Shown here one piece after another: positions 41,983-60,681 of a DNA stretch of 64,000 nucleotides. Under the pieces are notes generated by a model. The model was not told the origin of the DNA. It saw only the letters and a program-made list of their open reading frames with translations, and did not search any database. Source of the stretch: Aureispira sp. CCB-QB1 (lineage in GTDB: Bacteria > Bacteroidota > Bacteroidia > Chitinophagales > Saprospiraceae); contig NZ_JHBV01000016.1 of NCBI RefSeq assembly GCF_000724545.1, forward strand, positions 186,001 through 250,000, given 5' to 3'. Both the position numbers and the translations under genes were made by a program. Each line of letters opens with the position of its first letter. Positions within the stretch are counted from its first letter, which is position 1.

Positions 41983-43836
41983 TTAATGACCTCCATCTAC
42001 TTCACCTTCTGCTAAAGGCTCAGTTTGAAGGATAAACTCTCTACCGTGACGTCCCAAATCATAAGGCCAACGGTATACATGAGGAATATCTCCTTCCCAG
42101 TTTCCGTGTCCTGCATTTACAGGAGCTGTCCATTCTAAAGTTGTTGCTCCCCAAGGATTCAATTCTGTTTGCTTTCTTCCTTTGTACATAGAGTAGAAGA
42201 AGTTGATCACAAACAACAACTGAACAGCAAATGTCAAAATAGCTGCAATTGTAATAAATTCGTTCATACCACCGAATTCAGCAAACGCTTGGAAACCATC
42301 AAAACGGTAGTAACGACGAGGTACACCAGCCATTCCTAAATAGTGCATTGGTCCAAAGATAGCATACGCTCCAATCATTGTTCCCCAGAAGTGGATTTTT
42401 CCTAGTGTTTCGTTCATAAAACGACCATACATACGAGGGAACCAGTGGTAAATACCAGCAAACATACCAAAGAAAGCAGCTACCCCCATTACAATATGGA
42501 AATGGGCTACTACAAAATAAGTATCGTGTTGTTGAATATCGATGGCTGCGTTTCCTAAGAAGATACCTGTCAAACCACCAGAGATAAACATAGATACAAA
42601 ACCAATAGAGAATAAAGAGGCAGAATTGATGCGCAAGTTACCTCCCCATATTGTTGCAATCCAGTTAAATACTTTTACAGCTGAAGGAACCGCAATAATC
42701 AACGTAAAGAGAACGAAGATATTTGCGATGAATGGGTTCATTCCTGACATATACATGTGATGCGCCCAAACTAAGAAGGACAAGACACCAATTGCTAAGA
42801 TAGAAAATACCATTGCTTTGTAACCAAAGATTGGCTTACGTGCATGTACTGACAATACTTCTGATACTAGTCCCATTGCTGGCAAAATAATAATGTATAC
42901 CTCAGGGTGTCCTAAGAACCAGAATAAATGTTGGTACAAAATTGCTGAACCACCCACTCTTGTTGTCAAAGCTTCTCCAGCAACATAGATTTCATTTAAG
43001 AAGAATGATGTTCCCAAAACACGGTCAAAAGTCAACATAAAGAAACCTGATGCCAATACTGGGAATGATAACAATCCTAAAATTGCTGTCACGAAAAACG
43101 CCCAAATTGTTAGAGGCATTCTAAACATATGCATCCCTTTGGTACGCATATTTAATACAGTAGTAATATAGTTGATTCCACCCAATAGTACGGATACAAC
43201 AAAGAATACCAATGACAACAACCATAAAGTTGCTCCTGCCTTTGATCCATCTGATGCCTGTGGCAACGCAGATAAAGGAGGGTATCCTGTCCATCCACCA
43301 GAGAATGGTCCTGTATTTAAGAACAAAGAAATTAATAAGATAAATCCTGCCAAGAAGAAGAACCAATACGATAACATGTTCATCATTGGCGAAGCCATAT
43401 CTCTTGCTCCTAGTTGCAACGGAATCAAAAGGTTACTAAATGTTCCTGATAATCCTGCTGTTAATACAAAGAATACTAAGATTGTACCATGCATTGTTAC
43501 TAATGCATAATAAAAATCTGGGTCAATTCTACCAACTCCTGTTGTTGGATCAATATTAATCCATCCACCCAACAAAGGTTGTAGCCAAGCCATGTTTGCA
43601 TCAGGAAATCCTAATTGCAAGCGGAAAATAATCGACATTCCAGCACCTATGATTGCCCAAATAATTCCTGTAATCAAGAATTGCTTTCCAATCGTTTTGT
43701 GATCTTGGCTAAAAATGTATCGATCTACAAAAGAAGACTGATACTTGTCACCGTGATGGCCGTGGTCATCATGTCCATGGTCATCGTGGTGTCCGCCATG
43801 CTCTAATTCTTTTTCTATGATATTAATATCTGCCAT
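41983..43836 (-). CDS. ctaD: Cytochrome c oxidase subunit I
   Basis: A 617-residue heme-copper oxidase subunit I. FLGHPEVYIIILP holds the CuB His and the cross-linked Tyr, and DRYIFSQDHKTIGKQF starts the family core; WAHHMYMSGMN, QQHDTYFVVAHFHIVMGVAAFF and the D/K-channel segments are present. It is the catalytic subunit, with 12 or more helices. The N-terminus has a His/Asp-rich stretch, HGGHHDDHGHDDHGHHGD, ahead of the first helix, which is unusual. It follows ctaC and precedes ctaB. Confidence 0.97.
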   Translation of the reverse strand: MADINIIEKELEHGGHHDDHGHDDHGHHGDKYQSSFVDRYIFSQDHKTIGKQFLITGIIWAIIGAGMSIIFRLQLGFPDANMAWLQPLLGGWINIDPTTGVGRIDPDFYYALVTMHGTILVFFVLTAGLSGTFSNLLIPLQLGARDMASPMMNMLSYWFFFLAGFILLISLFLNTGPFSGGWTGYPPLSALPQASDGSKAGATLWLLSLVFFVVSVLLGGINYITTVLNMRTKGMHMFRMPLTIWAFFVTAILGLLSFPVLASGFFMLTFDRVLGTSFFLNEIYVAGEALTTRVGGSAILYQHLFWFLGHPEVYIIILPAMGLVSEVLSVHARKPIFGYKAMVFSILAIGVLSFLVWAHHMYMSGMNPFIANIFVLFTLIIAVPSAVKVFNWIATIWGGNLRINSASLFSIGFVSMFISGGLTGIFLGNAAIDIQQHDTYFVVAHFHIVMGVAAFFGMFAGIYHWFPRMYGRFMNETLGKIHFWGTMIGAYAIFGPMHYLGMAGVPRRYYRFDGFQAFAEFGGMNEFITIAAILTFAVQLLFVINFFYSMYKGRKQTELNPWGATTLEWTAPVNAGHGNWEGDIPHVYRWPYDLGRHGREFILQTEPLAEGEVDGGH

Positions 43837-43892: not shown

Positions 43893-45359
43893 TTAGTTAC
43901 CTGTAGTGTCTTGTACTGTTGAATCAACAGATACTGATACAGGCTCTTTTGGAGTTATTTTAACACTATTAGCAATTGCTTTAGCTTCTTCTAATTTTGC
44001 ATTAGATTCTGCTACTGATGTTGTTGTACGAGCTACTTTTTGAATAGGTTTTAGTTGATTCATTGCAGCTTCTGCATTGTTATAATCAGCAGATCCTAAT
44101 TCAGCATTATTTCTCATTTCTCTCATCTTGTTCATGTAAACATTGACACGAAGCTTGTTTTCTACTAATTTTTCTAAATCAGCAGTTTTACCTTTTAGAG
44201 GATCTTTGTCTGTGTTAAAAATTTTAGAGAAGTACTGAGATTTTACAGAACCTGGTACATAAGTATAAGTTGTTTCACCACCATTTGCAGAATCTACAAC
44301 CTCTTCCAATTTACCACCTTCTTGCTCATCCAACCAATCCAAGTATTCTTCTTCAGAAACAATTTTAACCAAGTTTCTCATACTGTAGTGGCCATTACCA
44401 CAAAGCTCAGCACAAGCTAACTCGTAGTTAAACATTTCCCAACGTTGCTTTGTATCGTCTTTTTTGTCTGGAACTTGCCACTCTGGCTGTTGACTCAAAC
44501 GACGACGCATAGAATCTGTTGTTACGGTTGGTGTGAAGTTAAAGTAAGTTGGCATACCAGGAACAGCATCTGTTTTAACACGCATATCACGGATGTAGAA
44601 GTTGTGCAATACATCACGAGCAGTAATGCGAACGCGAACAGGTTTTCCTACAGGAAGTACGATCTCAGTAGTCATGAAATCATCCATGTTTTTCTCATCT
44701 GTCCAAGTTTGTCCCAATTGGTTGGCACTATTAATTTGTGTAAAGTATTTTGTACCAATTTTCCCATCACGACCAGGATAACGCAAGTACCACAAGAACT
44801 GTGTTCCTGTTGCTTCGATTTCCAAGTATTCTCCATCCTCTTCTGGTAAAATAACACTTACAGAATCTTCTGGCAAGTCCAACATAATTTTATTCCAAGC
44901 TTGTAATCCACCTACTACCAAGAAAGTCATTACAACAGAAGGAATAATCATCCACACCATTTCTAGTGTTTCATTGTGCGCCCAATAAAGACCAATTTTT
45001 CCTTGTTTACCTTTGTATTTCCAAGCAAACCAGAATAATGCAATGTGCGTTAATACAAATACGATAAATGTAAAGAACAACGTAAGATTAAATAAGTAAT
45101 CTACTTCTGGTCCATGCTTTGATGCAGCAATATTAGGTCCCCATCCTAGAGTTGTTGGGATGTAGTAGATAAAAGAAACCACACACACCGATAAGAAGGT
45201 AACCATAAATACCATTCCTAAACCAGTGTGGAACTTATTGATCTCATCTTGTTCTGCTGGGTCGTTACGTACTATAGATGCTAGTTCTCTAGCTTTTCCT
45301 ACCTGCACGATAAATACAGCCAATAAAATGACACATAATGCCCCGATTGTAAATCCCAT
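43893..45359 (-). CDS. ctaC: Cytochrome c oxidase subunit II with extra N-terminal helices and a long C-terminal tail
   Basis: 488 residues. The CuA site is intact: CAELCGNGHYSM (about 330), with the upstream His in LHNFYIRDMRV. Four N-terminal helices are present, instead of the usual two (IGALCVILLAVFIV, VFMVTFLSVCVVSFIYY and two more), which I recall from other Bacteroidota. There is no heme c motif CxxCH in the tail, so this is a caa3-like cluster member without a fused cytochrome; the ACIII probably donates electrons directly or through ActE. The ~130-residue C-terminal tail is hydrophilic and coiled-coil-like. It starts at ATG 45359. Confidence 0.93.
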   Translation of the reverse strand: MGFTIGALCVILLAVFIVQVGKARELASIVRNDPAEQDEINKFHTGLGMVFMVTFLSVCVVSFIYYIPTTLGWGPNIAASKHGPEVDYLFNLTLFFTFIVFVLTHIALFWFAWKYKGKQGKIGLYWAHNETLEMVWMIIPSVVMTFLVVGGLQAWNKIMLDLPEDSVSVILPEEDGEYLEIEATGTQFLWYLRYPGRDGKIGTKYFTQINSANQLGQTWTDEKNMDDFMTTEIVLPVGKPVRVRITARDVLHNFYIRDMRVKTDAVPGMPTYFNFTPTVTTDSMRRRLSQQPEWQVPDKKDDTKQRWEMFNYELACAELCGNGHYSMRNLVKIVSEEEYLDWLDEQEGGKLEEVVDSANGGETTYTYVPGSVKSQYFSKIFNTDKDPLKGKTADLEKLVENKLRVNVYMNKMREMRNNAELGSADYNNAEAAMNQLKPIQKVARTTTSVAESNAKLEEAKAIANSVKITPKEPVSVSVDSTVQDTTGN

Positions 45360-45450: not shown

Positions 45451-47067
45451 TTAGTGTGCGTCTCTTTCTGGTCCGATTCCAGTATCATAATGCTCACTCT
45501 CCAAGATATATGGATCGTTTGGTGGATACAATGGTGCACGACTCAATGCAGTGAATGTTACAAATAAGAACAAGCCTAAGAAACCTAACATTGTTCCAAT
45601 TTCTAGTGCTCCAGGGAAGTGTACTCCTAGCAAGAATTGAGGTTCTGCATGATGTGCATGATCTCCGTGTGCATGATCATCGTGTCCTGCTGCTGCATGA
45701 CCGTGATTGTCATCATGATCGTGTCCAGCATCTGTTGTAGCATGATCGTCATGGTTATGATTGTCTGTATGTGTATCGTGATTATGCTCTGCATTTGTAT
45801 TAACATCATCTCCATTGCTATGATCGTTTCCATGGTCATGGCCATGTTGATCGTCTTGATAAGTTGTTAAAACAGCTTTAGGAGCTTCGTTGATGTGGTA
45901 AGTGTTCTCACTGTGTGTATCTCCATGGTCACCATGTCCAGCGTGAGACAAGTGTTGAGCATGCTCGTAGTTATACCAAACACCAGGCTTAATCATTTGA
46001 TAAAAGTCTACCCAATGTCCAATAAATACTAGTCCAGCAACAAACCCTAGTGTCCCCAATGTACGTTTAGAGTTGTTCATCATCAAGATGAAGAAAGGAC
46101 CAACAAAGTTCATTAATAAATTAGCAAAGAAAACAACTTTGAATTGCTCAAAACGAATAAAGAAGTACTGAGTTTCCTCACCGTTGTTAGCGTACCAAAT
46201 TAACATAAATTGAGAGAACCACAAATAAGTCCAAAATACGCTAAATCCAAAGATATATTTTCCAATATCATGCATATGCTCATCTGTGAATTTTTGTAGC
46301 AAACCTCTTCCTCTCAAGAAGATGATAAGCATAAAAGTCATAGCCATCATAGCTACCCACATAGATACGGTTACGTACCAAGCAAATAGAGTAGAGTACC
46401 AGTGAGTATCTACTGACATTACCCATTGCCAGATAACGTAAGCACTAGAAAAACCACCTATTGGCAAAAATGCTGCTGCATAGATACGGTTTTTTCTTAC
46501 GTTTTCAGGAACAGGATTATCTGTTGTAACAACATAAGGAGTAGAATCCTCATTGATAGAGATTTTTCTAAACATTACAGCAAAGAAAGTCCATGCTAAC
46601 ACAACCACTACAGTCAATAAGTAAGCGATAGGGTTAACAAAAGCAGACTTGTGAAAAGCCAATGGATCAAAGTTCGCACTTTCTACATTTAGATAATCTT
46701 GGTTGTTCCACAAGTACAATAATTCTGTACCATTTGCGTGCATGTATATCGCTATTCCTAAGATTAAAAATAAGATAGCTCCTACCCACAAGAAGCTCAT
46801 AATCGCTTCAGGGATACGTTTAAACATTGCAACCCATCCACCCCATGCCAAAGCATGTGCTGCTAAGAATAGAACTGCTGTAAATGCAATTCCTGTGAAA
46901 AACACGGAATTGTGCAAGTAATTAGTCCAAAAACGCATGTGATGCATATCCTCAGGACCACTGATGTAGGACCAGCCTAAACAGACGGCACCAATAACCA
47001 TCAGTACGATGGTAAACAGCTTGGTTTTTCCGTCAAAGACAAAAGTTTCGTTGTTATGATTGCTCAT
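45451..47067 (-). CDS. actF: Alternative complex III subunit ActF, with a His/Asp-rich insertion
   Basis: 538 residues of the ActF family, a quinol-oxidising-complex membrane subunit, with about ten helices (LFTIVLMVIGAVCLGWS, IPEAIMSFLWVGAILFLILG, SSAYVIWQWVMSVDTHWYST and more). Between about residues 366 and 476 is a long segment of His, Asp, Gly and Asn (HGDHGDTH, HGHDHGNDHSNGDD, HNHDTHTDNHNHDDHATTD) before the final helix. That region is likely a soluble loop, perhaps metal-chelating. The gene is the last of the act block, 91 bases before ctaC. ATG start at 47067. Confidence 0.92.
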   Translation of the reverse strand: MSNHNNETFVFDGKTKLFTIVLMVIGAVCLGWSYISGPEDMHHMRFWTNYLHNSVFFTGIAFTAVLFLAAHALAWGGWVAMFKRIPEAIMSFLWVGAILFLILGIAIYMHANGTELLYLWNNQDYLNVESANFDPLAFHKSAFVNPIAYLLTVVVVLAWTFFAVMFRKISINEDSTPYVVTTDNPVPENVRKNRIYAAAFLPIGGFSSAYVIWQWVMSVDTHWYSTLFAWYVTVSMWVAMMAMTFMLIIFLRGRGLLQKFTDEHMHDIGKYIFGFSVFWTYLWFSQFMLIWYANNGEETQYFFIRFEQFKVVFFANLLMNFVGPFFILMMNNSKRTLGTLGFVAGLVFIGHWVDFYQMIKPGVWYNYEHAQHLSHAGHGDHGDTHSENTYHINEAPKAVLTTYQDDQHGHDHGNDHSNGDDVNTNAEHNHDTHTDNHNHDDHATTDAGHDHDDNHGHAAAGHDDHAHGDHAHHAEPQFLLGVHFPGALEIGTMLGFLGLFLFVTFTALSRAPLYPPNDPYILESEHYDTGIGPERDAH

Positions 47068-47130: not shown

Positions 47131-48255
47131 TTATTGAACAATCTTTAGCTCTGTTCTTCTATTTTGTTTTTTTCCTTCTTCTGTATCATTCGATGCTACA
47201 GGTTGAGTGTCTCCATATCCTTTGTAAGACAAACGCTCTGCAACAATGTTATGATCAAGCAAATACTGGTATACAGCTTGTGCTCTTGCCGTTGACAACT
47301 CAAGGTTTTCAGTAGAATCTCCTGAATTATCTGTGTGACCACTAATTTCGATTTTCACAGTAGGGTTAGCTTCCAATAAAGCTACCAAAGTATTTAGTGT
47401 CTTTGAAGAAGCAGATTGTAATTCAGCATTCCCTGAATTGTATAATACATTGTCCAAGTTAATTTTCAAATCTTGTACATCATGATTGGCTTTCAATTCG
47501 CTAATCATAGCATTAAAAGACTCCTCTAAAGAAGGTTTTGGAGATACATTAACATTACCTGTTGGATTGTATTCTTTTCCAGCTTTAGCTGCCTGCATAG
47601 AACGAATATAGTGAATTACTTTCCAACGTTCCATTGGAGACATTTTATCAGCATGAGATTGCATCATACCTTTTCCATGCAAAATAGCGTTTAAGAAGCG
47701 ACCATCTGTAGCAGTACTAAATTCCTCATTAACTAAGTTAGCAGGTTTAGCACTATATTTTCCTTCTCCCTCATTATACAACACACCATTTCCATCAGCT
47801 TCTTCACCATGACATACTTCACAGTTAATAGAGTACAATGTAGCACCGTCTGTCAAAACTCTTTCTAATTCTGCTTTAGAAGTTGGTTTAATTTCATTTT
47901 GGATGCTAGCATCTGCCATCATCATATCTCTTACTTTTTCTTGAAGAGCCACGTGAGTTTCGTCAGCAGAAGTTCTATAATCTTCTAAGTTTTGGTATTT
48001 AGAAGGCAAGTAACCACGAGCTACGGTTCCTTTCACAGGTTTACGAGGACCAGCATAAGCTCTATAAGCTTCTTCTCCATCCCAAGTATTATTATAATAA
48101 TAACTACTGTAGTTTGCTTCGTATGCAATGGAATGTGACATATCTGGCATGTATTCACTACCAGTATCATCACCACCAGCACGACCACAGCTCCATAACA
48201 AAAGACTAGCCAGACCAACGGTAGCCAATGAATATATGCTTGTTAGATTTTTCAT
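47131..48255 (-). CDS. actE: Alternative complex III subunit ActE fused to an OmpA-like domain
   Basis: 374 residues. A lipoprotein signal (LASLLLWSCGRAGG; Cys about residue 23) is followed by a class I cytochrome c domain with one CEVCH heme motif (about 145-149) and a likely axial Met in HGKGMMQSHADKM. From about 265 to the end is an OmpA/MotB-type peptidoglycan-binding domain: LDNVLYNSGNAELQSAS, ISGHTDNSGDSTENLELSTA and LSYKGYGDTQPVASNDTEEGK, with the GHTD and RRTEL motifs. Normal ActE is only a mono-heme lipoprotein, so this is a fusion. It may tether the complex to the cell wall. Order actD-actE-actF is as expected. Confidence 0.9.
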   Translation of the reverse strand: MKNLTSIYSLATVGLASLLLWSCGRAGGDDTGSEYMPDMSHSIAYEANYSSYYYNNTWDGEEAYRAYAGPRKPVKGTVARGYLPSKYQNLEDYRTSADETHVALQEKVRDMMMADASIQNEIKPTSKAELERVLTDGATLYSINCEVCHGEEADGNGVLYNEGEGKYSAKPANLVNEEFSTATDGRFLNAILHGKGMMQSHADKMSPMERWKVIHYIRSMQAAKAGKEYNPTGNVNVSPKPSLEESFNAMISELKANHDVQDLKINLDNVLYNSGNAELQSASSKTLNTLVALLEANPTVKIEISGHTDNSGDSTENLELSTARAQAVYQYLLDHNIVAERLSYKGYGDTQPVASNDTEEGKKQNRRTELKIVQ

Positions 48256-48287: not shown

Positions 48288-48821
48288 TTAGATATCTTTA
48301 GTGTGAACTTCTTCTGCACTAGTTCTTTCCAATAATACAGAAAGTGCCTCTACCTCTTCTTTTGAACTGTGTGATACATCAAAAGCGATGCAAAACTTGT
48401 CGTCCGTAATTCTTGGATCTAAATATGGATTCTCAACTCCAAATCCTAATCCACATACAAGGTAGAAGGTAATAACCATTCCCACTGCTGCCATCAATAC
48501 CGTAAACTCAAACGTAATTGGAATAAATGCAGGAACAGAAAAATAAGGCTTTCCACCAAAAATAATCGGCCAATCACGGGTAAATACCCAAGACATGAAA
48601 CCAAAGGCTAAAGTTGTACCCGTCATTCCATACAAAAATCCTGCAATATGCAAGCGAGACTCGCTCAAGCCCAATACAGGGTCCAAACCGTGTACTGGAA
48701 AAGGAGTGTACACATCCATAATTTCAGCATCTTCTTTTTTGATTTGCTTGATTGCTGACATAAGGATTTCCTCATCATTGTACAAGCCGTATAGCACTTT
48801 TTTATTTAATACTCTTTTCAT
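48288..48821 (-). CDS. actD: Alternative complex III subunit ActD (DUF3341)
   Basis: 177 residues with two central membrane helices (LHIAGFLYGMTGTTLAFGFM and FEFTVLMAAVGMVITFYLV). The N-terminal VLYGLYNDEEILMSAIKQI and the MDVYTPFPVHGLD segment are characteristic of DUF3341/ActD. It is a small accessory subunit with no redox cofactor. It lies in the usual place between actC and actE, with spacings of 32-50 bases, so it is on the same transcript. Length is normal for the family. Confidence 0.94.
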   Translation of the reverse strand: MKRVLNKKVLYGLYNDEEILMSAIKQIKKEDAEIMDVYTPFPVHGLDPVLGLSESRLHIAGFLYGMTGTTLAFGFMSWVFTRDWPIIFGGKPYFSVPAFIPITFEFTVLMAAVGMVITFYLVCGLGFGVENPYLDPRITDDKFCIAFDVSHSSKEEVEALSVLLERTSAEEVHTKDI

Positions 48822-48871: not shown

Positions 48872-50488
48872 TTATTTATCGTCTTTTTCAGAATCTTCTC
48901 CATCTTCAAAATTCAAATCTTCTTTGAAGTCTTCGATGGTTTTATCTTCAGGATTATCTCCTATCAATACATCTACGTCAGACTCTAAAACTGTAGACGT
49001 TTTTGTATCAGGAGCTGTTCCAGTCAAATTTTGAGGAGTTTGAACATGACCGTGTGTCATGTGCTCATCGTGATCATGGTGGTGCAAACCAGCATTGATT
49101 TCACCAGTTTTTTCTGCTACAGCAGGACCCACATATTGATCACCAGAAGATTTTAAGATAGACTTAATCTCTGCTACAGCTACTACAGGAGCGACACGCA
49201 TAAAGATTAGGTAAAGTGTACCAAACAATCCAAAAGTAAATAGATAAATACCAATTTCTACCCAAGATGGAGTGTAGTAACTCCAGCTAGATGGAATGAA
49301 ATCTCTTGCTAGTGTTGTTGCGATAATTACAAAACGCTCGAACCACATACCAATATTTACAACAATAGATAAAACAAATGTCCACACTAAAGAACGTCTG
49401 ATTGAGCGGAACCAGAAGAATTGTGGAGAGATTACGTTACATCCCATCATCGCTGCATAAGCCCACCAATAAGGTCCCACAGCACGATTGTAGAATGCGT
49501 ATTGCTCATAAATATATCCTGAATACCAAGCAACAAACAACTCTGTCAAATAAGCAACCCCTACTATTGATCCTGTCAATACGATTACTTTGTTCATCGA
49601 CTCGATGTGCTCGATTGTAATATAGTCTTCTAATTTAAGGATAGATCTTGTGATAATCATCAAGGTACATACCATTGCAAATCCTGAGAAGATTGCCCCT
49701 GCTACGAAGTAAGGAGGGAAAATAGTTGTATGCCAACCAGGGATTACAGAAGTAGCAAAGTCAAATGATACAATCGTATGTACAGAAAGTACCAAAGGAG
49801 TTGCCAAACCTGCCAATACTAAAGATAAAGACTCCCAACGTTGCCAGTGCTTAGCTGAACCAGTCCATCCCATTGACAAGAAATTGTAAATTTTCTTTCT
49901 AAATCCTTTTGCACGGTCACGGATGGTGGCAAAATCAGGTACCAAACCAGTATACCAGAACAATAAAGACACTGTAAAATAAGTACTAATCGCAAATACG
50001 TCCCACAAAAGAGGAGAGTTAAAGTTTACCCATAAAGGTCCACGTGTATTTGGATAAGGAAATACAAAGAATGCCATCCACATACGTCCCATGTGAATTC
50101 CAGGGAAGAATGCTGCACAAATTACAGCAAAAATTGTCATCGCCTCAGCAGCACGGTTTACACCAGTACGCCATTTTTGACGGAATAATAATAAGATGGC
50201 AGAAATCAAGGTTCCTGCGTGACCAATACCTACCCACCATACAAAGTTAGTGATATCCCATCCCCAACCAATCGTACGGTTCAAATTCCAAGTACCGATA
50301 CCAAACCATAAGGTAAAGAAAACGGCAATACCACCAAAGGCCAAAAGCCCTAAGCTACCTAGCAAACAAAGCACCCATCCCATTCCTGGTAATTGCTCCG
50401 TAGGAGAACAGATATCCTCTGTTATTTGATGATACGTCTTGCTGCCCGTTACTAATGGTGGGCGAACATTTGATACAACTGCGCTCAT
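48872..50488 (-). CDS. actC: Alternative complex III subunit ActC (NrfD/PsrC-like quinol-binding membrane protein)
   Basis: 538 residues, NrfD/PsrC superfamily, with about ten helices (LLAFGGIAVFFTLWFGI, ITNFVWWVGIGHAGTLISAIL, FPYPNTRGPLWVNFNSPLLWD). It is the main quinol-oxidation and proton-path subunit of ACIII, sister to ActF. The C-terminus is a His- and Asp/Glu-rich tail (HHHDHDEHMTHGH, and a final EDFKEDLNFEDGEDSEKDDK), which is unusual. It follows actB by 60 bases and overlaps no other gene. ATG at 50488. Confidence 0.95.
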   Translation of the reverse strand: MSAVVSNVRPPLVTGSKTYHQITEDICSPTEQLPGMGWVLCLLGSLGLLAFGGIAVFFTLWFGIGTWNLNRTIGWGWDITNFVWWVGIGHAGTLISAILLLFRQKWRTGVNRAAEAMTIFAVICAAFFPGIHMGRMWMAFFVFPYPNTRGPLWVNFNSPLLWDVFAISTYFTVSLLFWYTGLVPDFATIRDRAKGFRKKIYNFLSMGWTGSAKHWQRWESLSLVLAGLATPLVLSVHTIVSFDFATSVIPGWHTTIFPPYFVAGAIFSGFAMVCTLMIITRSILKLEDYITIEHIESMNKVIVLTGSIVGVAYLTELFVAWYSGYIYEQYAFYNRAVGPYWWAYAAMMGCNVISPQFFWFRSIRRSLVWTFVLSIVVNIGMWFERFVIIATTLARDFIPSSWSYYTPSWVEIGIYLFTFGLFGTLYLIFMRVAPVVAVAEIKSILKSSGDQYVGPAVAEKTGEINAGLHHHDHDEHMTHGHVQTPQNLTGTAPDTKTSTVLESDVDVLIGDNPEDKTIEDFKEDLNFEDGEDSEKDDK

Positions 50489-50548: not shown

Positions 50549-53500
50549 CTAAGCAAAGTTTTCATCTTTGTTTACTACTTTCATTAAGTAGTTCACAGAA
50601 GAACGAACGTTGGTTTCTTCCAATGGAATGTACGCACGTTGTGTTCTTTGCAATTTATAAACTTCACTGTTTGGATTGTTGTCATCACCAAAGACAATAG
50701 CTCCAGTAGAACAAGCTTGTGCACAAGCTGGAGTTACATCAGAATCTTTTAGTTTACGACCTTCTACCTTCGCAGCCAATTTACCTTCTTGAATACGTTG
50801 AATACAGAAGCTACATTTTTCAATTACTCCACGAGTACGAACCGTTACGTCTGGGTTTAAGACCATACGAGTCAAGTTATCGTTCATGTAGTTATAACTT
50901 TCTGCATCGTCAATTCCTCTGTTCATGTCTACCTCGTTAGAAGGGAAAATATCCGCAGATGTATAATCCAACCAGTTGAAACGACGTACTTTAAATGGAC
51001 AGTTGTTCGCACAGTAACGTGTACCTACACAACGGTTATAAGTCATCTGGTTTAAACCTTCTGAACTATGGTTGGTTGCTGCAACTGGACAAACATTCTC
51101 ACAAGGAGCATTATCACAGTGCTGACACATCATTGGCATATAAACAGCATTTGGTGTTTCTTCATTTCCATAGAAATAACGGTCAATTCTCAACCAAGTC
51201 ATCTCATGAATGTTATTCACCTCAAATTTACCAACTACAGGAACGTTGTTTTCAGCCATACAAGCTACCGTACAAGCTCCACATCCAGTACAAGAGTTTA
51301 AATCTACAGCCATTCCCCAGTGGTGTCCCATTCCGTAGAACTCCTTGCGGTCAGGATATAAACCTTTGCTATTTAGATATTGATAACCTTTGCGTTTTTC
51401 TGCTAATTCTTTTACATCCTTAGCTACTTCTTTAGCCGTAGAGTGGAAGAAAACAGAACGATCAATCAAAGCACCTTGGAAACCTTCATTATGCTCATCT
51501 ACATTGAATGGCTTCTCTTCGCCAGTAGCATAAGTATGCATTTTAGTTTTTCCTGTTGCTTCATCTGTTGTTGTCAAACCATAAGTATGGTGCATTTGCA
51601 CACAGGCAAACAAACCATCGTGCCCTTCATATTCTGATACAGAACCAGCACCAGCATAACTAAAGCCTTTGATAGCAGGGAACAAGTCTGTTCCTACTCC
51701 ATTACCCGCCTTACCTGCTCTAGTACGTCCATATCCTAAGGCAATAGAAACAGTGTTGTCCATTTGACCAAATGTACGGAATACAGGCAATTGATAAGGT
51801 TTTCCATCTATGGTAATTGTAGCAATATCACCATCTTTCAAGTTATTCAAAGAAGTGTATCCAGAACCACCATCCCATTTTAATGGAATTTGAATGAAGT
51901 TATCCCAAGTAGTACGCATAATAGGATCTGGCATTTCTTGCAACCAAGGATTGTTGGCATGCTGTCCAGCTCCTAATTGTACACTTTCGTAGAATGTTAC
52001 TTCTAGTCCATCTGATTTCTTTTGAGATAAAGCCGCAACTGCTCCAACTATACCCAAGTTACTAGGTTCTGGAGTAGGCTCTACATCTGTAGGAAGCTCT
52101 GGAGTGTTCGCATCTACGACAGGCGTTTCGATTATATTTTCAACAATTGGAGAGCTTGTTTTAAACCATCCATTGTGTAATGTATTATTCCAGAAAGATT
52201 GGAACGTCATGTAATCACTTTGAGCAGGGAACATTTTGTTCTTCCAAGTCTCTTTCATGAAATCATGATACGTAGTTGATATTCCAGCCCAAGCTAACAA
52301 AGACTCTCCTGCTTGACGGGTGCTAAACAAAGGCGCAATAGTTGGTTGAACAACATATATTTCACCTTTTTTAGGTTCAGCATCACCCCAAGCCTCCAAG
52401 GTATGGTGGTCTGGTGCTACGTATTTACATAAAGCAGCTGTTTCATTCAAGGTTAAACCTAGAGATACAGACATTCCTACTTTTGGAAGTGCCGTAGCAA
52501 AATCAGCAGCCATGCCAGGAATATCATAAGCTGGGTTAGCACCATCGCAAACGATGATTGCATTAACAGCACCACTTTTCATATCGTTTACCAAAGCTTG
52601 AACAGCAGCATCGCGCCCCAAACGTTGTTTAGAGTGCATATCTTTTGTCAAAGTCATGGTAGCATTAACAGCACCTAACATTTCGTTGATTGCATTAACG
52701 GTCATTTGGATGTTAACATCATTGATACCGCAAACGACCAATGCTTTGCGAGCATTTGCAACTAATTTTTTAGCAGTATCTTTAATTGCTTTAGGAGCTT
52801 TTTTCCATGCAAATGATGGTGTAAATCCTAATGCAGCAGCACTGTTTCCAGTTTCTTTTGCTACTTCTGTATACAACATTCCAACAGCAGCCCCCCATTC
52901 AGAAGGTTTGATCAATACTCTATGATCTGCGTTAGAACCTGTTAACGACATACGAGATTCAAATTGGATGTGCGTAGACATTGTCTTGTCTGCCCCTACT
53001 TTGATATCTTGGTCTGTTACTTTACGATTTTTGATATAATCTTTAGAGTACTCTACTGGAGAAACCCAAGTACCTAAAAAGTCTGCCTCAATTCCGACTA
53101 CACACATTGCTTTATCAAAGTGGTATGCTGGAATCCAAGGCTTGTTGTACATTTTTTCGTTTGCCTCAATGATTGCAGAGTAAGAAATCGGGTCATATTG
53201 CACCAATTGTGCGCTAGGATATTTGCCTTTAAACGCTTCTACTGCTGCTTTAAAAGTAGGACTATTATTAGTATGAGAAACGATGCGAATTTGACCATTC
53301 AAACCTGCTTTAACAGCTTTGTCTAAGTCAGCCCAAGACAACATTGCCTTAGCTTCTGCTTCATTTCTTTGTTTTGTATTTTTGATTTTTTCTGCCTCTA
53401 ACAACTTAGCAACATCTCCAGCCCCTTTAAGACGGTTGGTATCATATAGTTCTAAGATAGAAGCTTGACTTCTAGCACAAGTACCTCCTTCTGTAAAAGT

Positions 53501-53869
53501 CTTGTCTTTTTTGCTTCCAGGGTTTCCTTCAATCTTAATTGGACGACCTTCACGAGTTTTCACCAATGCAGGTAATACATCGCCCCCCTGCACAACAGCA
53601 GAAGCAAAGTAAGTCGCTACACCTGGAACAATTTCTTCCGGTTTAATTACATAAGGAATTGCCGTTTTCACTGGCGTTTCACAACTTGCTACAGTAGCAG
53701 CTGTTAGACCAAATCCCATATACTTTAGGAAATCACGACGGCTGTGCTCGCTGTTCTCTGTTCCTTCAGTATGCGCAAATTCATTTTGCTGTAGATCATT
53801 AGTAGAAATATCATTGGTTAAGTCTTCTACACTTACCCAAACTTTATTATTGTTTTCCTTCTTATTCAT
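50549..53869 (-). CDS. actB: Alternative complex III subunit ActB (iron-sulfur, molybdopterin-oxidoreductase-like)
   Basis: 1106 residues: a large molybdopterin-oxidoreductase-type domain without a visible cofactor-ligating Cys/Ser, then a ferredoxin-like domain. The N-terminus has a Tat-like SRRDFLKYMGFG signal with a Cys (VASC) that may be lipidated. Four cluster motifs are clear in the C-terminal part: CTGCGACTVAC, CQHCDNAPCENVCPV, RCVGTRYCANNCPF and CSFCIQ...CAQAC, consistent with 4Fe-4S and 3Fe-4S clusters passing electrons from quinol. It lies in the expected order after actA, and a perfect hairpin separates the two. Confidence 0.95.
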   Translation of the reverse strand: MNKKENNNKVWVSVEDLTNDISTNDLQQNEFAHTEGTENSEHSRRDFLKYMGFGLTAATVASCETPVKTAIPYVIKPEEIVPGVATYFASAVVQGGDVLPALVKTREGRPIKIEGNPGSKKDKTFTEGGTCARSQASILELYDTNRLKGAGDVAKLLEAEKIKNTKQRNEAEAKAMLSWADLDKAVKAGLNGQIRIVSHTNNSPTFKAAVEAFKGKYPSAQLVQYDPISYSAIIEANEKMYNKPWIPAYHFDKAMCVVGIEADFLGTWVSPVEYSKDYIKNRKVTDQDIKVGADKTMSTHIQFESRMSLTGSNADHRVLIKPSEWGAAVGMLYTEVAKETGNSAAALGFTPSFAWKKAPKAIKDTAKKLVANARKALVVCGINDVNIQMTVNAINEMLGAVNATMTLTKDMHSKQRLGRDAAVQALVNDMKSGAVNAIIVCDGANPAYDIPGMAADFATALPKVGMSVSLGLTLNETAALCKYVAPDHHTLEAWGDAEPKKGEIYVVQPTIAPLFSTRQAGESLLAWAGISTTYHDFMKETWKNKMFPAQSDYMTFQSFWNNTLHNGWFKTSSPIVENIIETPVVDANTPELPTDVEPTPEPSNLGIVGAVAALSQKKSDGLEVTFYESVQLGAGQHANNPWLQEMPDPIMRTTWDNFIQIPLKWDGGSGYTSLNNLKDGDIATITIDGKPYQLPVFRTFGQMDNTVSIALGYGRTRAGKAGNGVGTDLFPAIKGFSYAGAGSVSEYEGHDGLFACVQMHHTYGLTTTDEATGKTKMHTYATGEEKPFNVDEHNEGFQGALIDRSVFFHSTAKEVAKDVKELAEKRKGYQYLNSKGLYPDRKEFYGMGHHWGMAVDLNSCTGCGACTVACMAENNVPVVGKFEVNNIHEMTWLRIDRYFYGNEETPNAVYMPMMCQHCDNAPCENVCPVAATNHSSEGLNQMTYNRCVGTRYCANNCPFKVRRFNWLDYTSADIFPSNEVDMNRGIDDAESYNYMNDNLTRMVLNPDVTVRTRGVIEKCSFCIQRIQEGKLAAKVEGRKLKDSDVTPACAQACSTGAIVFGDDNNPNSEVYKLQRTQRAYIPLEETNVRSSVNYLMKVVNKDENFA

Positions 53870-53989: not shown

Positions 53990-55417
53990 TTAGTAGTGAC
54001 ATTTTTGACACTCCAAACCACCAATTTCTTCAACAGTAACTCCTGTACGTTTACCGTCTTTTAGCTCATTGTGGTATTGCTCATAATATTTGTAATCAGT
54101 ATAGTAAGCATTTGCTTTATTGTCGTCACCATCATAAGGTGTTTTCTTACCTGCGTTCAAACCATCGCGGAACTGAACTTCTGTTTGTCTATGACAATTG
54201 ATACACCATCCCATAGACAATGGAGAATGTTGCTTCACGACATCCATTTCAGATACTTCACCGTGACAAGTCTCACATTTCACTTTACCCACAGTTACGT
54301 GTTGAGAGTGATTGAAATAAACGTGATCTGGCAAGTTGTGAATACGAACCCACTCGATTGGTTTGTTGTAAGTACCTTTTACAGAAGCCAATTGCTCATC
54401 AATCATTCTATTGACAGAAGTTTCATTTTCTTTCCACTCTTTGTCATAAGTTTTTCTCAACCATCTTCTGTATACTTCTGCTCTATCCTCATCGCTCATA
54501 TCTTCTGGCAAGTAAGAGTTAGACAATGGATTGAAACCTGATGCAGCATATACTTTGATCAACTCTTTAGTACCATCTTTTGATCCTTTTTGGATGTTGG
54601 CGTGACAGTTAATACAAGTATTAGAAGCAGGAATAACAGAATGCTTAGAACGACGAGCCCCATCGTGACAGTATTGACAATCAATTCCGTTGTCTCCAGC
54701 ATGGATTTTGTGTGAGAAGTTAACTGGCTGGGTTGGTGCGTAGTCTTGTTGACGTCCCAAACCAATAGCGTTGTTAACAGTAGTATAACCTCCAATTAAA
54801 ACAACTACAAAAATTAGCAATTTGATCACAGAAGGTCCTAGTAAAATACCTACAACAGATTTCTCTGGAGTAACAACAGCCCCTTCATTTTGCTGAGACA
54901 AACGTGTTAAGCTATTAATATAGCGTCCCAACAAAGCAATCGCTAACAACAACACAAAAATTAAGATATAACCCAACCAAGGGCTACTCTCGTCTTGACT
55001 TGTTGTAACAACTTCACCTCCTTCTTGTCCTTCTGTTTTGTCTAGAGCACCCGATCCCTTCAACTCCACAAATTCCAAGATGTCATCAATTTGAGCATCT
55101 TCTAAAGATTCAAAGGCTGTCATGGCAGAAGCAGCCCAAGTTACCATTTGCTTAGCACGAGGATTTCCTGCCTCCGCTAAAGCTTCAGAGTTACGTATCC
55201 ACTCATAGATAGCACCAGGATATTTTTTCCAACGATCCTTTGCTCCATATAGAGCAGGTCCCGTCATGTCACTAACCATGTCGATGTTGTGACAACTGGC
55301 ACATTTCTCCAAAAATAGAGATTTACCATTATTTGCATCCGCCGCCATTGACCAGTTTGGCAACATTGCAATTAACAAAGTAATTGCGCAAAAGCTTAAA
55401 AGTCTTTGATATATCAT
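53990..55417 (-). CDS. actA: Alternative complex III subunit ActA (multiheme cytochrome c)
   Basis: 475 residues, with a cleavable signal peptide. Six CxxCH heme motifs are seen: CASCH in an N-terminal cytochrome c domain (about residue 39), then CQYCH, CINCH, CETCH, CINCH and CQKCH in the C-terminal pentaheme domain. One or two membrane helices lie between (LGYILIFVLLLAIALLG and LLIFVVVLIGGYT). ActA is the heme subunit that accepts electrons from the ActB clusters. The extra N-terminal mono-heme domain I believe recurs in Bacteroidota. It is first in the operon, 45 bases downstream of a good promoter. Confidence 0.95.
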   Translation of the reverse strand: MIYQRLLSFCAITLLIAMLPNWSMAADANNGKSLFLEKCASCHNIDMVSDMTGPALYGAKDRWKKYPGAIYEWIRNSEALAEAGNPRAKQMVTWAASAMTAFESLEDAQIDDILEFVELKGSGALDKTEGQEGGEVVTTSQDESSPWLGYILIFVLLLAIALLGRYINSLTRLSQQNEGAVVTPEKSVVGILLGPSVIKLLIFVVVLIGGYTTVNNAIGLGRQQDYAPTQPVNFSHKIHAGDNGIDCQYCHDGARRSKHSVIPASNTCINCHANIQKGSKDGTKELIKVYAASGFNPLSNSYLPEDMSDEDRAEVYRRWLRKTYDKEWKENETSVNRMIDEQLASVKGTYNKPIEWVRIHNLPDHVYFNHSQHVTVGKVKCETCHGEVSEMDVVKQHSPLSMGWCINCHRQTEVQFRDGLNAGKKTPYDGDDNKANAYYTDYKYYEQYHNELKDGKRTGVTVEEIGGLECQKCHY

Positions 55418-55930: not shown

Positions 55931-57058
55931 ATGTTTGAGATAGGAGCTAAAATACGGTTCAAATATACAGGAATGCTTGCCGAGATTATTGAAAATCATC
56001 AAGATGGTAGCTATACCGTATGGCTAGACGAGGAACAAGAAGATAGCATTGCTTTTGAAGATGATATTGTGCTGGACAAAGATTTTAAAGCAATCGAACA
56101 ATCTGAACAGCAAAAAGCATTAAAGAAAAAGGTAAAAGGACCTTCTACTGAAGATTTATTTTACAGCAAAAAAGAGTTGGAAGATAGAAAAAGAGCTGCC
56201 CTCCGTCCCAAAAACAGAAAAGCTATCATTGACAATCTCTATGAGAATACTGAAGAAACAAACGAAGCAACTTTTATTCCTACTGCTATCATTGAACAGG
56301 CTCCAAGTAATAAAGGCTGTTTTTTGGCATTTCACCAAACGTCTAATAGCAATTATACTATTTATCTAGTTAATGATTCTCCTACCTCTTTTAGTTTCAC
56401 GTTTAAGTTGTTTTTGAATCAAGCACTAGAACACGGTTTTAACAAAATCATTCCTGCCAATACTTTTTTTGCAATTGGAGAATTCACACAAGCACAGTTC
56501 AACGATGCTCCATATATAGAATTCACCTGCCCTAAGTTTGGCTTTGAAAAAATAATTAAGCTGAAATATCGTAAATTTATCCGAACAACTCAGCCAATTC
56601 CTTTGATGGGAATAAACACATATAGCTTTCTGTTATTTCATAAATTAAATCCATACACAAAAAAAAGTCATTCGATAAAAGATTATACAAACCTTCACAA
56701 AAAAGAACGGGCACAGATAATGGCACCAATTAACCGCTTATATCGTTCTTTTGATCTGATGGATGTTGCCTCTTTTGAACCAGAGTTGGATTTGCATGCG
56801 GAGAAATTAGTGAATGACACTTCTGAGTTTACGGCAAGAGAGTTGTATGAATTGCAGATACAAGTTTTAGAAGATTTTGTTGCCAAAGCGGTAGAATTTG
56901 GTCTAAAAGAAATCTTTATTATCCATGGTCTTGGCAAAGGGAAATTAAAACAAGGAGTAGACGAATTCTTGCGATTTCACGGTGATGTTAAGGCTTATAA
57001 AAATGAGTTTCACGAAAAATATGGTTTTGGCGCTACTAAAGTGCTTTTAAAAAAATAA
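55931..57058 (+). CDS. DUF2027 and Smr-domain protein (MutS2-like)
   Basis: 375 residues. The N-terminal ~60 residues (IGAKIRFKYTGMLAEIIEN, YTVWLDEEQEDSIAFEDD) resemble a DUF2027/KOW-like segment, a low-complexity linker follows, and a beta-rich middle ends with the C-terminal Smr domain: FEPELDLHAEKLV, FIIHGLGKGKLKQGVDEFLR and YGFGATKVLL. Smr domains act as nucleases or bind branched nucleic acids, e.g. at collided ribosomes in MutS2. The HGxGxG loop is intact. In Bacteroidota this fusion without the MutS ATPase is common; its role is not certain. It is divergent from the act operon. Confidence 0.85.
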   Translation: MFEIGAKIRFKYTGMLAEIIENHQDGSYTVWLDEEQEDSIAFEDDIVLDKDFKAIEQSEQQKALKKKVKGPSTEDLFYSKKELEDRKRAALRPKNRKAIIDNLYENTEETNEATFIPTAIIEQAPSNKGCFLAFHQTSNSNYTIYLVNDSPTSFSFTFKLFLNQALEHGFNKIIPANTFFAIGEFTQAQFNDAPYIEFTCPKFGFEKIIKLKYRKFIRTTQPIPLMGINTYSFLLFHKLNPYTKKSHSIKDYTNLHKKERAQIMAPINRLYRSFDLMDVASFEPELDLHAEKLVNDTSEFTARELYELQIQVLEDFVAKAVEFGLKEIFIIHGLGKGKLKQGVDEFLRFHGDVKAYKNEFHEKYGFGATKVLLKK

Positions 57059-57408: not shown

Positions 57409-60400
57409 ATGAACCACTTATTTATTGTTGTTCTACTCTTATTATCGTTGACGACAATTGCTCAAGATTCTGATTATATTATCACCAAAGAAGATGCTAC
57501 TAAATATGGAAAAATAGAGGGCTTGAATTTGAGTATTAGCTCCAGTGCCATTACATTTATAGATGAGCGTGGAAAAACGAGTAGGTATACTCCCAACGAG
57601 TTGTTGGAATGGCGCAAAGATGGCATTATATACCAAACAAAACTCTATCCATTCAAAAACAAGAAGCCAGTACTTACATTTATGCATCTTCTTGCAGAAA
57701 ATGCAACAGGAATAAGTGTGTATGAATATGCAACTAGGTTTAATCCTAAAGGAGCTACTGATATCTTTTTAGAAAGAGATGGACAATTAACTAAAGTTCG
57801 TTTTGGTCGCTTTAGAAAACAGATGATAGAATACTTTAGTGACCGTTCAGAAATTACGGCTCTTCTCAAAAACAGAGAAGTTAAGAAAAAAGATTTATTA
57901 AACCTTGTCGAGGAGTACAATGAATTAGTTGCTAATGAATCAGATTATGATGGCACTCCCTTTGGGCAGCAGCGGACAAAGAAGAAACGTATCTGGAATT
58001 TGAATGATATGTTGCTAAGTACCGATGAAGCTGCCAAAAAATACATGGCAGCTATTAAAGAAGCAACGAAAGATATTTTAGATAAAAAAATTCAGGCAAT
58101 CGAAATTGATTATGGGGTTGGTTTGTCTTTTTTTGAACAAAACAAATACGACGAAGCACTTCCTTATCTAAAAAGTGCAAGAGAAGCTATTGATGCAGAG
58201 CAAATAAAAACAGACAAATCGCCTCGCATTGCTTCTATGTTAGCAGCAATTTATTTTAGCCAACGAAAATATAATCTTGCCATTAATTATAATAGCAATG
58301 CTTTATTGCTTTGGGAGAATGGTTTATCCAATGATTCGGATGCTTTTCACCTCTACAATAGTTACATTACACAAGGGCGAATCATTCAAGCATTGAGAGC
58401 TTCTGCCTCTAATGTTGCTTGGTATGAAATGACTGTTAATGATGCTCAAAAGGATTGGGAAGAACAGTTAACGGTTCGAAACTTAGCGCCTATTGTACAT
58501 GCGAGCAAACCCAATAAATCCGTTGATTATAATTTGGCATTGTTGTTTTACAAAAGTGCAGAAGATATTCTCTACAAACTGCCTAGACAAAAACAAATTG
58601 AGAAAAAAATAGACTTGCACATTTTAATTGGAAAATTATATTTTGAAGCGGGAGATTATCCTCTCTCTCAAATTTATTATGAAAAAGCCCTTGAGTCCAT
58701 TGATAATTATTACAATTACAACAACCCACACCCTAGAAAAGGGGAGGTCAAACGTATTTTGAGTGAAATATATCTGGCCAATCAATTATATTCCGAAGCT
58801 TTAAATTATATCGACCAAGCTCAACACAGTCAAGTAGGAGCAGAAATAGAGATTGATTATTCTCTTTTGGATAATATCTATAAGATTCCTTTTCCTTTAG
58901 AGCTATTAAATTCAATTACCACTAAGGGGATTATTCTTTATGAAAAAAATAAGCATAATCCATCTGAAGTTGAATTAAAAAAAGTATTGGCACATTATGC
59001 TATTGCTACAGAATTACTGTATAAACTTCGGGCAATTCAACGAGATGATGAATCAAAATACCAATTAGGAACGATTACACATCGATTGAGCCAGCATGCT
59101 GTAAAAATTTGTAATACACTCTACTTAAAAACTCAAAATCAAGATTACTTGCACGAAGCGTTTTCTTATGCAGAGCTTTCTAAAAGTGCTGTACTGTTTG
59201 AGACAATACACAACCTAAACTCAATGCAGATAGCGGGTATTCCTAGAAACTTAACCGTTATGGAAAATGGCTTTAAAGTTCAGATTTCTTACTTAAAGGG
59301 AGAAATTTTTTATGAAATGCAACAGGGAAAATACGCTAATAAAGAACGCATCAAACAATTACAAAATAAGGTTGAAGCTATCTCTAAAGAACATACTATC
59401 CTATTAAAAAAATTAGAGCGAAATTATCCCGAGTACTATGATTTAAAGTATAGTAATAACAAAGGAGTAACACTTAAACAACTACAAAAAGCATTAAAAA
59501 ATGATGAAGTTTTTCTAGAATATGTGGTTACAGATACCTTTGTATATGTTTTAGCAATTAGCAACCAAACCATAAAAAGCCAGTTTAAAACTCTTAAACG
59601 CCCTCTGCCTTATACTGTCAAAAAGCTTCAACATGCCTTAAGAGACAATAAGGCTGATTTGTATGCGATCCACGGTAATGCGCTTTATGAAAGTGTTATT
59701 GGGGAGTTGACCCCCTTCTTGGAAGGCAAAAGGCTTATCATTGCTCCCGATGCAGAGTTAAATTACATCCCATTTGGGGTCTTGCCGACCAATCAACCAC
59801 AGTTAAAAAGTACTGGGGCTTCTATTTACAGACAAGTACATTTCTTAATTGAAGATCATCCTATTTATTACAATTATTCGGCGGGTATGTTTTTATTAAG
59901 CAAACGTCAAAGACCACACAAGAACATCCATAAATCTATTTCTACTTGGGCTCCTAACTTTACTGCAATGGAGACTATTATTAAGGATAAAGGTATTGGA
60001 GAAAAGTTGCGTCCCTTGCCTGGTGCTCAGCAAGAAGCACAGCACATAGCGGATATGTTTGCTAGTAATGCTTATATCAATAGTGCTGCCTCTGAATTAC
60101 AATTTAAATCAAAAGCCCACGATTATAGTGTTTTGCACATTGCTACACATGGTGTTCTCAATGATTTAGATCCGATGTTTTCCAGTCTAATTCTGAAAAA
60201 CGAAGGCTTAGAGGATGGTATTTTACATGCTTTTGAACTTTATAATATGCGACTAAATGCAGATTTGGCGGTATTAAGTGCTTGCAACTCTGGTATGGGA
60301 AAACTTGCCAAAGGAGAAGGTGTCGTGAGTATTGCTCGTGGGTTTTCTTATGCTGGTATTCCTAATATTATTATGAGTAAATGGCCCGTATCTGACTGGT

Positions 60401-60681
60401 CTACAGAATTGCTAATGAAGCAATTTTATAGAAATCTCAAAAAGGGAATGCCCATCGACGAAGCACTACAAAAGGCAAAAATTAAGTACTTAAATGAAAA
60501 TAGAGAAAATGCCAATCTCTTAGCTCCTTTTTATTGGGGTGGCTTTGTTTTGTCAGGCAATAGCATGCCAATCAATTCCCTTAAAGATCCTGCTGCTGGT
60601 TATCTCTGGTATCTTGGTATTCTCTTAATAGCTGTAGCTCTTATTTCCTTACTAATCAAGGTTAAAGCTAAATTTTTCTAA
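57409..60681 (+). CDS. Exported TPR-CHAT caspase-like protein
   Basis: 1090 residues. A signal peptide (LFIVVLLLLSLTTIAQ) is followed by an N-terminal domain, a central block of TPR-like repeats (IASMLAAIYFSQRKYNLAIN, LHILIGKLYFEAGDYPLSQIY), and a C-terminal CHAT domain. The catalytic dyad is visible: His914 in LHIATHGVL and Cys959 in LSACNSGMG, with the ARGFSYAGIPNIIMSKWPV and FYWGGFVLSG family segments. The last ~25 residues are one membrane helix. CHAT proteins are caspase-like peptidases, often activated by binding to their TPR partner. The periplasmic, membrane-anchored location is unusual for the best-studied ones. Confidence 0.88.
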   Translation: MNHLFIVVLLLLSLTTIAQDSDYIITKEDATKYGKIEGLNLSISSSAITFIDERGKTSRYTPNELLEWRKDGIIYQTKLYPFKNKKPVLTFMHLLAENATGISVYEYATRFNPKGATDIFLERDGQLTKVRFGRFRKQMIEYFSDRSEITALLKNREVKKKDLLNLVEEYNELVANESDYDGTPFGQQRTKKKRIWNLNDMLLSTDEAAKKYMAAIKEATKDILDKKIQAIEIDYGVGLSFFEQNKYDEALPYLKSAREAIDAEQIKTDKSPRIASMLAAIYFSQRKYNLAINYNSNALLLWENGLSNDSDAFHLYNSYITQGRIIQALRASASNVAWYEMTVNDAQKDWEEQLTVRNLAPIVHASKPNKSVDYNLALLFYKSAEDILYKLPRQKQIEKKIDLHILIGKLYFEAGDYPLSQIYYEKALESIDNYYNYNNPHPRKGEVKRILSEIYLANQLYSEALNYIDQAQHSQVGAEIEIDYSLLDNIYKIPFPLELLNSITTKGIILYEKNKHNPSEVELKKVLAHYAIATELLYKLRAIQRDDESKYQLGTITHRLSQHAVKICNTLYLKTQNQDYLHEAFSYAELSKSAVLFETIHNLNSMQIAGIPRNLTVMENGFKVQISYLKGEIFYEMQQGKYANKERIKQLQNKVEAISKEHTILLKKLERNYPEYYDLKYSNNKGVTLKQLQKALKNDEVFLEYVVTDTFVYVLAISNQTIKSQFKTLKRPLPYTVKKLQHALRDNKADLYAIHGNALYESVIGELTPFLEGKRLIIAPDAELNYIPFGVLPTNQPQLKSTGASIYRQVHFLIEDHPIYYNYSAGMFLLSKRQRPHKNIHKSISTWAPNFTAMETIIKDKGIGEKLRPLPGAQQEAQHIADMFASNAYINSAASELQFKSKAHDYSVLHIATHGVLNDLDPMFSSLILKNEGLEDGILHAFELYNMRLNADLAVLSACNSGMGKLAKGEGVVSIARGFSYAGIPNIIMSKWPVSDWSTELLMKQFYRNLKKGMPIDEALQKAKIKYLNENRENANLLAPFYWGGFVLSGNSMPINSLKDPAAGYLWYLGILLIAVALISLLIKVKAKFF

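Follow-up and report, generated by a model that had tools for sequence, protein, structure and literature searches.

The 374-residue open reading frame on the minus strand at positions 47131 to 48255 of the window, by which we mean the whole analysed stretch of 64,000 nucleotides, encodes the ActE subunit of alternative complex III (ACIII) extended at its C-terminus by an OmpA-like peptidoglycan-binding domain. We think that this actE-ompA fusion probably provides a wall anchor for the supercomplex of ACIII and the cytochrome aa3 oxidase. The same kind of domain is found on oxidase subunit II (CoxB) in many relatives, and it is this second location, together with the conservation of the putative peptidoglycan ligands, from which the proposal mainly draws.

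A first-pass annotation, which was made from the DNA letters, had placed an ActE with a C-terminal OmpA domain here, and its coordinates, strand and length were right. The motifs that it had named are also present, GHTD at residues 306-309 and RRTEL as part of NRRTEL. The Pfam comparison that it had recommended yields a confident match to OmpA (PF00691; E 4.3e-22, 78.7 bits vs a cut-off of 27.2) at residues 272-366 (47158-47442), spanning profile positions 2-98 of 98. The Cytochrome_CBB3 model matches residues 134-217 (47605-47856; E 9.9e-10), and as the protein contains exactly one CXXCH motif, at residues 145-149, this part is a monoheme cytochrome c domain. Residues 1-218 alone retrieve ActE chains from solved structures of ACIII, namely 6f0k_E (E 2.6e-9), 6btm_E (E 6.5e-8) and 6lod_E (E 1.6e-4), for which R. 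marinus, F. johnsoniae and R. castenholzii, respectively, are given as sources (PMC8552683). The first 23 residues (48187-48255) read as a signal peptide with a lipobox (LLLWSC), in which Cys23 is the presumed lipid-bearing residue. In R. marinus ActE, the reported lipobox ends at Cys24 (PMC5928083). Cytochrome and OmpA parts are connected by a linker of about residues 226-263 (47467-47580), which is the fastest evolving part of the protein and is little conserved among the fused proteins. An assembly artefact, in which two separate genes would have been joined, could be ruled out. A second assembly from the same species, G396, consists of 2 contigs and encodes the identical 374 residues, and in G402, where a contig break divides the gene, the two contig ends share an overlap inside it as judged by eye.

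The OmpA domain is canonical in its sequence and modelled fold. Asp309 of the GHTD motif (47329-47331) and Arg324 of an LSxxRA motif (47284-47286), the putative diaminopimelate ligands, are invariant across 13 aligned fused ActE proteins, and both residues recur in every one of the 65 operonic OmpA domains examined, 36 of them from ActE and 29 from CoxB. A motif script scored 64 of these domains, and the remaining one, at locus L198, was scored by eye because the script missed it on account of its GYTD and RS, where both residues are kept on reading. An aspartate and an arginine are reportedly the diaminopimelate-binding residues of the A. baumannii OmpA. Structure modelling, which the first-pass annotation had also proposed, turned out well for one half of the protein: in an AlphaFold model with an input of 19 rows, the blocks from residue 261 onwards mostly reach a pLDDT of 79-97, with one at 70, whereas the cytochrome part is poor, with values mostly under 50 and an overall pTM of 0.45, so that the structural claim is limited to the OmpA part. 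For this part, Foldseek retrieved the C-terminal domain of C. gingivalis OmpA (5wtp; TMt 0.83, rmsd 1.3 over 107 columns) and the A. baumannii OmpA with diaminopimelate (3td4; TMt 0.81). Purifying selection acts on the domain, as its dN/dS (Nei-Gojobori) is 0.07-0.30 in four Aureispira pairs, in which the cytochrome part has 0.11-0.24 and the linker 0.21-0.47, and 0.09 and 0.12 in two pairs of another genus, all of these ratios being rough because dS approaches or exceeds 1 in several cases.

The fusion gene is part of an operon with the order actA-actB-actC-actD-actE-actF-coxB-coxA, all on the minus strand, so that actD, actC, actB and actA lie upstream of actE, and actF, coxB and coxA downstream. 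ActA (53990-55417) has six CXXCH motifs and an N-terminal cytochrome c domain, ActB (50549-53869) is the iron-sulfur and molybdopterin-like subunit, with matches to Fer4 families and with QrcB/QrcC models below their cut-offs, ActC (48872-50488) is the NrfD-like quinol subunit (PF03916), and ActD (48288-48821) matches PF11821 with E 6.9e-57. ActF (45451-47067) is without a Pfam match and was assigned by its position between actE and coxB and by homology in the operon loci. CoxB (43893-45359), oxidase subunit II, matches only COX2 and COX2_TM in Pfam and is without an OmpA domain here according to the HMM scan, and CoxA (41983-43836) is oxidase subunit I (PF00115, E 5.4e-143). All 61 operon loci examined, to the extent that each covers it, have this gene order, including actE between actD and actF.

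Within the genus Aureispira, the fusion occurs in 6 of 9 genomes, two of these genomes representing one species and one of the six fusions being split by the assembly. G395 and G398 encode the full fusion with 79-80% identity to the window protein, G401 encodes it with a longer linker in a 430-residue frame, and ActE of G397, G399 and G400 is without OmpA in frames of 262-273 residues. A restriction to this genus is ruled out by fusions in other genera and in other families of the order. With a profile of 13 fused proteins, ActE-OmpA was detected in at least 26 of 398 genomes of the family Saprospiraceae and in at least 9 of 112 genera; 24 of the 26 match through the OmpA end, G677 matches from a contig start and G402 is the split case. 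Because those 24 have E 2.2e-127 or better and the listed matches reach E 7.3e-97, further intact fusions are unlikely. In a sample of 198 genomes of the order, 12 from outside the family carry the fusion, 11 in family f89 and 1 in family f98. In a phylum sample of 375 genomes, the window's genome was the sole ActE-OmpA match at E 1e-40 or better, the search having scored the best 5 candidates per genome, so that a divergent case could be missed. The samples of family, order, class and phylum thus agree in a limited range, a phylogenetic restriction of the kind that the first-pass annotation had named as support. Its statement that known ActE is a mono-heme lipoprotein only is correct for the three solved ActE proteins and does not extend to the fusions in at least nine genera of this family and in two further families.

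A divergent ActE from another family of the class (G192; L129, 763-1764) has a degenerate OmpA-like end with GHVASD for GHTD; it was left out of the ActE-OmpA counts and perhaps represents an independent or decayed fusion. Long ActE frames in G618, G478, G565, G503, G533 and G505 were discarded as candidates, since their tails are His- or Lys-rich and not OmpA, and none was found when the ActE frames of G377, G368 and G090 were checked for OmpA. The 656-residue frame of G156, which contains a stop, was left out of this long-frame check.

The fusion had initially been taken as a peculiarity of ActE, which is not the case. The search of the order placed OmpA matches about 3 kb downstream of non-fused actE genes, in frames about 500 residues long, and these frames are coxB. 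All three of the Pfam models OmpA, COX2 and COX2_TM matched in 14 of 14 aligned CoxB-OmpA proteins, and these preserve the copper-site region with ELCGxGH almost without exception. In an even draw of 148 family genomes, in which CoxB was matched in 138 and not matched in 10, OmpA resides on CoxB in 99 genomes (97 in full, G442 from model position 117 and G485 over two contigs). Among the matches listed, it is on ActE in 13 genomes and on neither subunit in 23, and 3 CoxB genes are cut by contig ends; for about 10 of the 23 and many of the 99, "not on ActE" means that a strong match is missing among the matches listed. Altogether, ActE or CoxB carries the domain in 112 of the 135 genomes where CoxB could be judged. 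The 23 family genomes without OmpA on either subunit, together with the 3 of 9 Aureispira genomes without it on ActE, indicate that the domain is dispensable.

In no case was the domain seen on both subunits. The 99 CoxB carriers and the 26 ActE carriers among the matches listed do not overlap, and 62 operon loci, which were picked partly by ActE state and examined in frames of at least 80 residues, have it on ActE in 24, on CoxB in 27 and on both in 0. With 16 further loci, 11 of which were picked because ActE is fused, the loci with both subunits seen (n=70) divide into 31 with OmpA on ActE, 29 with OmpA on CoxB, 10 with OmpA on neither and 0 with OmpA on both. In the class sample of 159 genomes, CoxB-OmpA was absent from all 107 matching genomes of other families. 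The two architectures also differ in spacing, as the distance from the CoxB copper-site motif to OmpA is nearly constant at 64-77 residues (28 of the 29 measured) and that from the ActE cytochrome part to OmpA is variable at 31-91 residues (34 of the 35 measured).

ActE is described as sitting atop ActA in the periplasm and as a likely lipoprotein, and in a 20 Å map of the R. marinus supercomplex it adjoins oxidase subunit IIc (PMC5928083). If the anchor proposal is correct, ActE, a lipoprotein according to its lipobox, would keep its heme domain attached to ActA on the inner membrane, the fast-evolving linker would reach out from there, and the OmpA domain would bind the diaminopimelate of peptidoglycan stems, whereby the whole supercomplex would be tethered to the wall. 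The anchor would have been relocated between the two adjacent periplasmic subunits ActE and CoxB. As either of two adjacent subunits can bear it, the anchor would serve the assembly rather than the electron transfer by ActE, and the frequent location on CoxB in the even draw makes the domain seem to be the supercomplex's rather than the heme subunit's. A fixation of the respiratory complex to peptidoglycan, as suggested in the first-pass annotation, is the best reading of the domain, although still a conditional one. The link to the outer membrane that was suggested alongside is unsupported: the protein shows no outer-membrane part, and relatives with the second arrangement have such a domain on CoxB, which is integral to the inner membrane. 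One anchor per supercomplex appears to suffice, and some lineages have none; we infer both the formation of supercomplexes in these bacteria and the rule of one anchor per particle. More tentatively, and with rather less confidence than would be needed to favor it, it may be considered that selection keeps one anchor per ACIII-aa3 supercomplex and that the anchor moved as a unit between ActE and CoxB, perhaps repeatedly. Deletion of actE in F. johnsoniae is reported to leave electron transfer to aa3 intact and to slow growth, and an anchor would fit this published hint that ActE does more than transfer electrons (PMC8552683), although no OmpA domain is present on the solved ActE of F. johnsoniae itself.

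OmpA domains can also mediate protein-protein contacts. It is conceivable, if unlikely, that the domain leaves the wall unbound and serves as a protein-protein module, which would keep ActE and the oxidase attached to each other or provide a docking site for a further periplasmic electron carrier. Such a linking module could sit on either subunit, as ActE and CoxB are neighbors in the published supercomplex, and an unassigned periplasmic density above ActE is described for the ACIII of R. marinus (PMC5928083). This density lies near where an anchor or a partner could sit. A docking module could, however, lose the Asp/Arg pair, which all operonic domains examined have kept despite a divergence such as that between the window ActE domain and one CoxB domain, which share 47% of positions. 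Less probable again, in our estimate, is that the fusion is a nearly neutral by-product, originating from a perhaps repeated chance capture of an abundant domain with little effect on respiration. The window genome has 56 OmpA matches at E 0.001 or better, the domain is missing from both subunits in the 23 genomes mentioned above and from ActE of G397, G399 and G400, and the ActE domains of two loci sit beside paralogs in the domain tree, all of which would suit such an origin; but the domain is under purifying selection, the fusion is present in three families, and one of the two subunits carries OmpA in the large majority of the judgeable genomes. That ActE-OmpA acts away from ACIII as a Pal-like outer-membrane lipoprotein is very improbable. 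It shares with Pal the plan of a lipobox plus an OmpA domain, but its N-terminal part is an ordinary ActE, its gene stays in the act operon at every locus as far as each reached, and CoxB, on which the domain is found otherwise, is integral to the inner membrane.

Returning to the wall anchor, its history can be followed in an operon tree of ActB, ActC, ActD, ActF, the CoxB core and CoxA, from which ActE was left out (77 rows, 3090 columns). The 29 CoxB carriers and five others form one group of 34 (SH-aLRT 99), which is nested among ActE carriers, and the ActE carriers of f89 and f98 are outside the family. The carrier state is clustered on this tree, with 8 changes vs a shuffled mean of 30.7; such clustering is expected of any inherited trait, and related genomes are not independent. 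The better-rooted trees suggest, though not decisively, that the domain was first on ActE and came to lie on CoxB later, by one or two relocations and with several losses. In the first tree, for which a single distant row served as outgroup, the root of the family fell among CoxB carriers; the addition of three further families shifted the root and made ActE-first the better tree. Holding the ActE side of the family together is 39 log units costlier at a p-AU of 0.264, so that the CoxB-first direction is not rejected. A mixture model run with 53 of the 77 rows puts the ActE carriers g227 and g294 inside the CoxB group, which would mean a second switch, and for this reason the number of relocations is given as one or two. 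The either/or pattern accordingly rests on one or two switches.

A tree of the OmpA domains themselves (92 rows, 111 columns) unites the CoxB-type domains in one clade (94/74), which is weakly placed with part of the ActE domains (61/74). In the best tree, the ActE domains do not form a single clade: that of L173 pairs with a paralog (99/93, starred) and that of L276 groups with paralogs (91/83), which counts against a single source. One clade of all operonic OmpA domains is nevertheless not rejected (p-AU 0.411), and a clade of the ActE domains alone was not found and is likewise not rejected (p-AU 0.142), four long-branch paralog rows having been dropped before this last test and the tree that followed it. 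A late local gain inside the genus was dismissed, as the five ActE OmpA domains of the genus, including that of G401, form one clade (98/83).

The solved ActE proteins (6F0K, 6BTM and 6LOD) have the operon place, lipobox, single heme c and cytochrome domain in common with the window ActE. Their chains of 162-209 residues match its cytochrome part only, to which the window protein adds the linker and the OmpA domain. An OmpA-like C-terminal end on an electron-transfer subunit is likewise present in the photosystem I subunit A2 (PsaB, 7f4v chain aB), which is matched by the window ActE (E 1.3e-14) and by the CoxB-OmpA profile (E 5.9e-21), and which we take to be from the Gloeobacter photosystem I. 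It differs in being another subunit of a photosynthetic and not a respiratory complex, and we know of no change of carrier for it. The MotB/PomB stators and TagL/TssL of type VI secretion are inner-membrane machines that are tied to the wall by an OmpA domain, as is proposed here, and the domains of MotB, PomB and TagL are matched by that of the window ActE. In contrast to ACIII, these are not electron-transfer complexes, and their domain is not known to change subunit. Finally, the CoxB of caa3-type oxidases resembles the CoxB-OmpA of the window's relatives in having a C-terminal extension with an extra domain, but it is a fusion to cytochrome c, so that the added domain is a heme domain there and OmpA here. 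A literature search in open-licence papers found no description of ActE-OmpA or CoxB-OmpA. With PsaB-OmpA as the nearest precedent, an electron-transfer complex bearing a wall-binding domain is a known kind, and the respiratory version with the domain on alternative subunits is new.

The occurrence of the putative anchor on one or the other of two neighboring subunits, and in no observed case on both, suggests that a single particle is tethered. Whether respiratory supercomplexes matter physiologically is described as a subject of continuing debate (PMC5928083), and a movable anchor would be a simple genetic handle on this question. If selection does keep one anchor per supercomplex and the anchor moved as a unit, the supercomplex would be a fixed, wall-bound respiration station, and genetics, independently of biochemistry, would testify that ACIII and the oxidase work as one particle in living cells.

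Some further features of the operon and its surroundings deserve mention. About 120 residues at the C-terminus of the window CoxB (about 370-488) form an extension without an OmpA match, which by eye is charged and helix-like and occupies the place of the linker and OmpA in its relatives. The ActF of the window contains a long His/Asp-rich insert, and in ActE proteins encoded beside a CoxB-OmpA (for example at L203, L199 and L222), a His/Asp-rich tail is often terminal. The last 60 ActE residues contain on average 7.9 histidines in the 29 CoxB-OmpA loci, some of which have 0-2, vs 0.3 in fused ActE. These tails and the ActF insert possibly bind metal. Elsewhere in the window genome, three OmpA matches occur in frames of 894 residues at C27:128893-130059. 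Next to the operon, on the plus strand, lie an open reading frame with what by eye is presumably an Smr-like end (55931-57058) and one of 1090 residues that resembles a TPR-CHAT protein (57409-60681), both labels being tentative assignments from motifs.
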